From Congeria kusceri (lineage: Eukaryota; Mollusca; Bivalvia; Myida; Dreissenidae), in the NCBI GenBank assembly GCA_027627225.1, contig CM051034.1, positions 41,893,048 through 41,957,047 of the forward strand: a stretch of 64,000 nucleotides of DNA. Reading direction: 5' to 3'. The notes under the pieces are model-generated. The model ran no database searches. It was not told the origin of the DNA and was given only the letters and a program-made list of their open reading frames with translations. This document shows, piece after piece, positions 26,501-29,500 of the stretch (within the stretch, counting starts at the first letter, position 1; each line of letters opens with the position of its first letter). The position numbers were made by a program, and so were the translations under genes.

Positions 26501-29500
26501 GGATTTTTGTTTAGAAGAGACTTCCTTGAAACAGAAAATACCATAAAAGCGGAAATTGCCGTCCAGGATTAGCCTGTGCGGACTGCACATGCTTAGAGAC
26601 CGGTTTTCCCACGATGCGCCTCATATGTTTATTGTCAACGGTGTTTGACGGAGTTTGAACTAAGTAGGTTTGGTAAAAAATCCATTGCGTAACGTCTATT
26701 GCATTTCAAGTATATTCATTCTTACGGTTTAAAGCGTCAGTTTTACATATGGGTTAAGAAACAGACTTAAGTGTTACGTTATGTCCAAAATAAAACCCAT
26801 TGTTACTAATGGTTCAACAATAACACTATCGTTCTATGAATCTGACTGGAGATTTTAACCGTTTTGATTTTGAGTGGTTCGATGGTTATCAGCGTTACGT
26901 GATTTTATGTCAAATATAGGTTCGATAGTTTCCATGATAATATTTAAAATGACTTCAGTTGTCTGAATATTAATTTAACTGTGTTGGAGCATTTTCCTTT
27001 CCATTATTGCTCTCAAGTTAAATTTTGTACTGATGTTTTTTTATTATGACACATGTATGATACTATTTATGAAACATTTGTTTCCTTATTAGAATGTATT
27101 TAGTGATCGTGTACAAGGAAAGGTCCGTGGAACTCTGGAACCTTAAGACACTGCAACTCATCCGGGACGATTTTGTAGACACTAAAATGAAATCGTCGAT
27201 TGTTGTAAGTTAGAATCTATTATTGTTGTAAGTTAGAATCTATTATTGTTGTAAGTTAGAATCTATTATTGTTGTAAGTTAGAATCTATTATTGTTGTAA
27301 GTTAGAATCTATTATTGTTGTAAGTTAGAATCTATTATTGTTGTAAAAGTTAGAACCTATTATTGTTGTAAGTTAGAACCTATTATTGTTGTAAGTTAGA
27401 ACCTATTATTGTTGTAAGTTAGAACCTATTATTGTTGTAAGTTAGAACCTATTATTGTTGTAAGTTAGAAGCTATTATTGTTGTAAGTTAGAACCTATTA
27501 TTGTTGTAAGTTAGAACCTATTATTGTTGTAAGTTAGAACCTATTATTGTTGTAAGTTAGAACCTATTATTGTTGTAAGTTAGAAGCTATTATTGTTGTA
27601 AGTTAGAACCTATTATTGTTGTAAGTTAGAAGCTATTATTGTTGTAAGTTAGAACCTATTATTGTTGTAAGTTAGAACCTATTATTGTTGTAAGTTAGAA
27701 CCTATTATTGTTGTAAGTTAGAATCTATTATTGTTGTAAGTTAGAACCTATTATTGTTGTAAGTTAGAACCTATTATTGTTGTAAGTTAGAACCTATTAT
27801 TGTTGTAAGTTAGAACCTATTATTGTTGTAAGTTAGAATCTATTATTGTTGTAAGTTAGAAGCTATTATTGTTGTAAGTTAGAACCTATTATTGTTGTAA
27901 GTTAGAACCTATTATTGCTGTAAGTTAGAACCTATTATTGTTGTAAGTTAGAACCTATTATTGTTGTAAGTTAGAATCTATTATTGTTGTAAGTTAGAAC
28001 CTATTATTGTTGTAAGTTAGAACCTATTATTGTTGTAAGTTAGAACCTATTATTGTTGTAAGTTAGAACCTATTATTGTTGTAAGTTAGAACCTATTATT
28101 GCTGTAAGTTAGAATCTATTATTGTTGTAAGTTAGAACCTATTATTGTTGTTAGTTAGAACCTATTATTGTTGTAAGTTAGAACCTATTATTGTTGTAAG
28201 TTAGAACCTATTATTGTTGTAAGTTAGAACCTATTATTGTTGTAAGTTAGAATCTATTATTCAATAATGTCATACACTATATAAGGCTTAAATAACTAAG
28301 TAACATTTTTATTGTATTTGACAAAACTCTTAGTTTTTTCGAACTCTGATTATTGATCAGACGAGAAAAACTGTTTATGCACATGTTAATAGGGAATGAT
28401 AAATCTTAACGTTAAATTGTATGGTTCTGTAAATATTAATAATAATAGTAATATGATGATGATGATAATGATAATGATGATGATGCTGTAGTAGTAGAAG
28501 TAGTAGTAGTAGTAGTAGTAGTAGTAGTGGTAGTAGTAGTAGTAGTAGAGTAGTAGTAGTAGTAGTAGTAGTAGTAGTAGTAGTAGTAGTAGTAGTAGTA
28601 GTAGAGTAGTAGTAGTAGTAGTAGTAGTAGAGTAGTAGTAGTAGTAGTAGAAGTAGTAGTAGTAGTAGTAGTAGTAGAAGTAGTAGTAGTAGTAGTAGAG
28701 TAGTAGTGGTAGTAGTAGTAGTAGTAGAGTAGTAGTAGAGTAGTAGTAGTAGTAGTAGTAGTAGTAGTAGTAGTTGTAGTGGTAGTAGTAGTAGTAGTAG
28801 AGTAGTAGTAGTAGAAGTAGTAGTAGTAGTAGTAGTAGTAGTAGTAGTAGTAGTAGTAGTAGTAGTAGTAGTAGTAGTAGTAGTAGTAGTAGTAGTAGTA
28901 GTAGTAGTAGTAGTAGAAGAAAGTGACCTAACATTTGTCTAACGCTCGTCTGTAGACGTGGTACAACCTGGCCACAACAAGCACAACCAAGAGGACGGTT
29001 GTGGATGACAAGGGCGTCTCCAGGGAGATAGAAGAACGCGCCATCATCGAGCAGCTGTTCGTAGCGTCCCAGACACCAGACGGCAGCTCCCTGGCCAGGA
29101 TCAACGTGTCCAGGGGTGTCATAGACACGTCGACGAATTTTGAAGTAAATAACATCTTTCCTATGGAGGTAGGCGAATTTTCATCTAAATGCCAATTTTT
29201 CTATGGAGGTAGGCGAATCTTGATCTAAATAACAGCTTTCCTATGGATATCAGCGAAGTTTGATCTAAAACGTATTTTCCCTATGGAGGTAACGGGTTCA
29301 ATCCACGTGTTTCTGGACTAGAATACGGTGTATTTAGCACCATACATTCCTCCTCGTTGTTGCATTTTCAACATAGTCTTTCATCTGGGTTGCTACGAGT
29401 ATGTGGTCATATTATTAATGAGATCAACATAATAAGTGATGTATAAAGATTTGTTCAGGTTAATTATAGAAACAGAAATGATTCCTCATCGGACATAAAT

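Follow-up and report, generated by a model that had tools for sequence, protein, structure and literature searches.

The closest described systems to the locus reported here are tandem repeats in the human genes ABCA7 and IFI6, and the minisatellite of IFI6 (6-16) was reportedly described by Turri et al. in 1995. In intron 18 of ABCA7, a 25-bp variable number tandem repeat (VNTR) includes the exon 18 donor; the reference carries 23.7 units, and about 12 to 427 have been observed (PMC5954066). Canonical splicing there uses the donor nearest the exon, and one unit is retained from the second donor at about 2%, which is out of frame and leads to a stop and nonsense-mediated decay (NMD). Longer VNTRs went with more skipping of exon 19 and lower expression, unit retention was unaffected by length, and no link between VNTR length and NMD was observed (PMC5954066). 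For IFI6, the accessible part of PMC4526556 describes two downstream repeat units that serve as donors and three mRNA species. VNTR6-1 of TERT was considered as a further precedent and dropped, as the available part of its description locates it in intron 6 and does not place it over a donor. Here we describe a 23-bp minisatellite in the WDR11 gene of the bivalve Congeria kusceri, found in a stretch of 64,000 nucleotides (the window; GenBank assembly GCA_027627225.1, contig CM051034.1, positions 41,893,048 to 41,957,047 of the forward strand). Numbered from the first letter of the window and on its + strand unless stated, the array (27199 to 28261) abuts a coding exon and holds the likely 5' splice site of that exon, starting 6 bp inside it, as placed by the WDR11 alignment and the reading phase. 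We read this donor-embedded minisatellite as a tandem duplication that spans the exon-intron junction and is tolerated since changes in copy number leave one intact junction, and we give this reading a probability of roughly three in four.

The gene was identified from a translation of the window exons joined by hand, which matched PDB entry 8xfb, human WDR11, at E 2.3e-55 and both the first and second WDR11 propellers of Pfam above their cut-offs. Our partial gene model has 16 donors placed by hand, and leaves out the exons between 31340 and 36601 and the donors after 36771. The exon in question (27093 to 27204, 112 nt, acceptor CCTTATTAG/A, the slash marking the junction here and below) encodes the peptide MYLVIVYKERSVELWNLKTLQLIRDDFVDTKMKSSIV, which falls inside the alignment to 8xfb. 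It ends in phase 0, and its last six bases, ATTGTT, open unit 1 of the array. We scored nine GT sites of this exon with a donor matrix built from textbook frequencies, leaving out a GT at the fourth base that would leave an exon of 3 nt. The site inside unit 1, GTAAGT at 27205 to 27210 after TTGTT, scored 6.08; the eight others scored 5.11 or less, and the next-best (5.11) sits in another phase. A donor earlier in the exon was rejected on these scores (the fourth-base GT being unscored), and no GT outside the array reached the score of the unit 1 site in the stretch from 26250 to 28955. The unit 1 junction joins phase 0 to the sole stop-free frame, one of three, of the next WDR11 coding exon (28956 to 29168, 213 nt, phase 0 to 0), and the alignment to human WDR11 carries on across it, weakly there. 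The original prediction, made from the letters of the window, had named the gene as WDR11, numbered this exon 14 and placed its donor in unit 1. The PDB and Pfam matches bear out the gene name, and the score and the phase-0 join make the unit 1 site the best-supported donor.

Tandem Repeats Finder gave the array a period of 23, 46.1 copies and 97% matches, and its consensus, from that program and a unit parse, is ATTGTTGTAAGTTAGAACCTATT. The parse divided it into 46 units, 45 of them 23 bp long and unit 7 of 25 bp, with a 2-base insertion. With head-to-tail units in the range of about 10 to 100 bp, many copies and high identity it is a minisatellite in the ordinary sense, as had been proposed at about 46 units of 23 bp. 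GTAAGT is kept in 44 of the 46 units, the exceptions being unit 7 (GTAAAAGT) and unit 42 (GTTAGT). The + strand of the whole window (G+C 34.4%) holds 56 GTAAGT, including these 44. The 9-mer GTT/GTAAGT is common to 42 of the 46 units, unit 1 included, and units 32 and 40 read GCT/GTAAGT. The description of the units as consensus 5' splice sites stands for the intronic hexamer GTAAGT, but not for the exonic side, where positions -3 to -1 are GTT instead of CAG; the unit 1 donor ranks 7th among the 16 donors placed in WDR11. Nearly all other variation falls at position 18 of the unit; counted over the 45 units of normal length, this base is C in 30, T in 11 and G in 4. The T variant occupies units 1 to 6 and the last unit, and the units between are mainly of the C type, along with some of the T and G types. 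A row of six T units at the exon edge gave p 5e-5 on shuffling, a post hoc value for a feature chosen after the data were seen; the run count of position-18 types over all 45 units gave p 0.04, and beyond the first six units their order was indistinguishable from random (p 0.83).

The 45 later donors, in units 2 to 46 (27228 to 28247), comprise 43 GTAAGT, one GTAAAA and one GTTAGT. If used, each of the 45 would give an in-frame stop, GTA AGT TAG following directly after the 37 whole codons of the exon. The immediate stop had been foreseen for any later donor and holds throughout; the accompanying figure of about 45 decoys is right as a count of later donors, but those with GTAAGT number 43. 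A stop after every later donor would fit a dosage rheostat, an array kept because a fixed proportion of transcripts is spliced at rival donors and lost to NMD, with copy number setting the level of WDR11. The lower expression and greater exon skipping of longer ABCA7 alleles also speak for such a device, but in that gene unit retention is independent of length and no length-NMD link was observed (PMC5954066). Within the WDR11 array, three kinds of change occur outside position 18; two hit GTAAGT (units 7 and 42) and one lies outside it (units 32 and 40). Changes that break GTAAGT are thus not depleted, and there is no sign of selection for GTAAGT within the units, although the changes are few and give little power. 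On balance, we consider a dosage rheostat unlikely.

The remainder of the intron (27205 to 28955, 1751 bp) is also repetitive. The 23-bp array makes up 1057 bp of it, and another 429 bp (28488 to 28916), upstream of the acceptor, consist of a (GTA)n array in which TAG occurs 130 times. Beyond this second array lies CTAAC at 28928 to 28932, which is branch-point-like by the usual motif rule; its A sits 24 nt upstream of the acceptor G, the interval holds no other AG, and a second CTAAC lies 13 nt ahead of that G. The usual rule is that the first AG past the branch point serves as the acceptor. Because no AG intervenes between CTAAC and the acceptor, the acceptor is clear despite the 130 TAG triplets, and the donor side is the interesting one because no rule of this kind applies there.

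The origin of the array was addressed by searching the genome assembly of 1,549,140,067 bases (1.55 Gb), in which match counts may be lower bounds. The exact main unit, of the C type, had 28 matches, and a 32-base pattern allowing up to 3 mismatches had 44; all lie inside the WDR11 array, so that the unit is not found at many places in the genome as a dispersed satellite would be. An alternative origin, by insertion of a dispersed satellite unit or of a repeat carried by a transposon at the junction, draws on the richness of this genome in tandem arrays. Against it stand the lack of matches elsewhere in both searches, which could miss lone diverged units, and the presence of the exon end itself in the repeated unit. 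We find such an insertion hardly credible. The array was also not found in the viral contigs searched. The exon with its upstream flank is single copy in the assembly, about 41.9 Mb along the contig, and no second copy of the locus was found there. That single-copy flank also argues against an assembly artefact, in which the copy number or the array itself would be wrong. The 2-base insertion confined to unit 7 could be such an error, but the C, T and G variants are interspersed along the array, and long reads, if the assembly was built from them, would easily cover 1 kb. An artefact appears quite improbable.

Growth in place most likely accounts for the array because the unit holds the exon end itself and ATT borders both array ends, at the start within the exon, 6 bp upstream of the donor, and at the end as CTATT/ATT. 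The distribution of the T variant, which fills units 1 to 6 and recurs in the final unit with C and G variants between, is as expected of a local founder. From these features the array probably grew where it now stands. A 23-bp segment consisting of the last 6 exon bases and the first 17 intron bases would have been duplicated in tandem in place, probably at first through slippage between the short flanking ATT repeats. Further slippage or unequal exchange may then have brought the array to about 46 units.

We considered whether the repeated donors hold U1 small nuclear ribonucleoprotein near the exon or guard the transcript from premature polyadenylation. At positions +1 to +6, GTAAGT is fully complementary to U1, and 44 such sites lie within about 1 kb. 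The intron is merely 1751 bp long, though, and local folding predicts low accessibility of the sites, with a mean unpaired probability of 0.047 for units 2 to 46. Genome-wide, three AGGTAAGT at short spacing gave 478 matches (246+232), against 723 (290+433) for the reversed pattern, both figures being overlapping pattern matches and not arrays. A special excess of donor-like arrays in this genome was rejected on this comparison, and a U1 reservoir seems very improbable to us. Because there is no enrichment over the reversed pattern, donor-containing arrays seem to arise incidentally from the abundance of tandem repeats. The WDR11 array itself looks like the outcome of mutation tolerated by the gene. 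The functional part of the original prediction, that the array holds U1 locally or tunes WDR11 by its copy number, finds no support here.

Repeats also overlie other WDR11 junctions. A second donor-embedded array of four 40-bp units (29134 to 29291) spans the end of the exon 28956 to 29168; units 1 and 2 carry ATGGAG/GTAGG, unit 4 carries ATGGAG/GTAAC, and the site is lost in unit 3. A third duplicated donor (22907 to 22971) consists of TTTGTTAAG/GTA at the exon end 22928 and a copy 40 bp downstream; 12 bases are duplicated exactly, and the second copy, if used, would lead to a stop. On the acceptor side, an array of 2.9 units of 88 bp (37671 to 37923) lies over TTTTAG, the likely acceptor region of a C-terminal exon of WDR11 read from 37924, the acceptor position being approximate, and each unit has a TTTAGAC-like site. 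Tandem arrays, selected by hand from the Tandem Repeats Finder rows, cover 4546 of the 23800 bp of the gene region, and 2 of the 16 placed donors lie inside them by coordinates. On a looser test, three of the 16 donors had at least 17 of 25 matches to a neighbouring sequence, as against 21.9% of all sampled positions. WDR11 donors in repeats are not in excess over the rest of the gene region. None of nine acceptors tried in the same test (three of them placed within about 2 bases) reached 17/25, and a value of 18/25 was obtained at two of the positions tried for the likely acceptor inside the 88-bp array. Elsewhere in the window, at 18640 to 18960, a 53-bp unit is present in 6.1 copies with 100% match, and this array is perhaps very recent or homogenised. 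The window also has interspersed hairpin repeats that may resemble those of dreissenid mussels, and a G+C of 35.1% is reported for the zebra mussel assembly against 34.4% in the window; we base no conclusion on these figures.

Beyond WDR11, we took up 14 of about 19 arrays among the genome-wide matches listed, and ten of these looked non-coding on visual inspection. Among the 14, one alone (L041) lies at a recognisable exon end. Its exon is FMO-like, with a Pfam score of 36.2 bits against a cut-off of 22 and a PDB match at E 3.3e-8, and the exon end is made of five units of 42-43 bp, each with AG/GTAAGT (L041, 2505-2676, reverse strand). Open frames without a family match were seen at L040, L043 and L048, that of L043 also being without a PDB match. 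At L048, a run of 19 GTAAGT (2515-3137) follows an open frame of 54 residues and is possibly another exon end; the first eight GTAAGT were checked, and each is preceded by GCTTCAG. A broader proposal would be that junction-spanning tandem duplication is a recurrent class in this genome, with decoy arrays acting in many genes as length-variable, heritable rheostats of unproductive splicing; it would draw on the three donors and the likely acceptor of WDR11 and on at least one FMO-like gene. We hold this to be doubtful.

The reading of the WDR11 array as a tolerated junction-spanning duplication is based on its structure, on a unit private to the locus, on the frame consequences of the later donors, and on the similar duplications at other junctions. 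Since the junction is part of the repeated unit, whole-unit gain or loss would keep the exon end, the donor and the frame intact at the exon-proximal edge, which allows the array to expand in a conserved gene. Unit 1 is expected to be chiefly used, as the unit that gives the shortest exon (112 nt) under exon definition, and later units would be used at a low level to give truncated, NMD-prone messages. The measured splicing of human ABCA7 intron 18 follows this pattern. The array would then be near-neutral. Several points weigh against this reading. The use of unit 1 as the donor is deduced from sequence, and the donor sequence is identical to that of unit 1 in most units; because of this sharing, the 9-mer does not explain the choice of unit 1. 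Nor does local folding explain it, because unit 2 and others are predicted to be more unpaired (0.127 in unit 2 and as high as 0.180 in other units, against 0.090 in unit 1). Masking of the decoys by RNA structure was rejected, the folding giving no clear difference between unit 1 and later units. The T-type identity of the first six units could reflect local homogenisation or constraint near the exon. Finally, a match of 17/25 is rarer outside arrays (4.4% of sampled positions), and by that measure the donor at 22928 stands out somewhat.

The locus offers a natural experiment in which the spliceosome picks one donor among dozens that are alike in sequence and lie at growing distance. Each later donor would lengthen the exon in steps of 23 nt, so that the number of junction reads at each unit would show directly how donor choice declines as the exon gets longer. 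The array also suggests that repeats spanning a junction may expand safely because one intact junction remains.

Compared with the described systems, the WDR11 array is like the ABCA7 VNTR in that an array at a coding exon contains the donor and its downstream units are donor-like. As far as the available parts of PMC5954066 describe it, the ABCA7 VNTR starts with the donor GT and lies in a C-rich region, whereas the WDR11 units are AT-rich and each also carry 6 exonic bases. Effects on splicing and expression were measured for ABCA7; by analogy, some effect of the WDR11 array on splicing is plausible and may be incidental. IFI6 is alike in that a minisatellite supplies multiple splice donors, but its variants are said, in the accessible part of PMC4526556, to encode different isoforms, whereas the downstream donors of WDR11 would all lead to an immediate stop. 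The FMO-like gene of the same genome, with five GTAAGT donors about 43 bp apart in units that span the junction, differs from WDR11 in that its units are mostly exonic, fewer and more diverged. A limited literature search turned up no description of an array of this kind in WDR11, and this does not prove that none exists. The WDR11 array looks like a new case of the arrangement known from human ABCA7 and IFI6, and it carries that arrangement beyond those two genes and outside the human genome.
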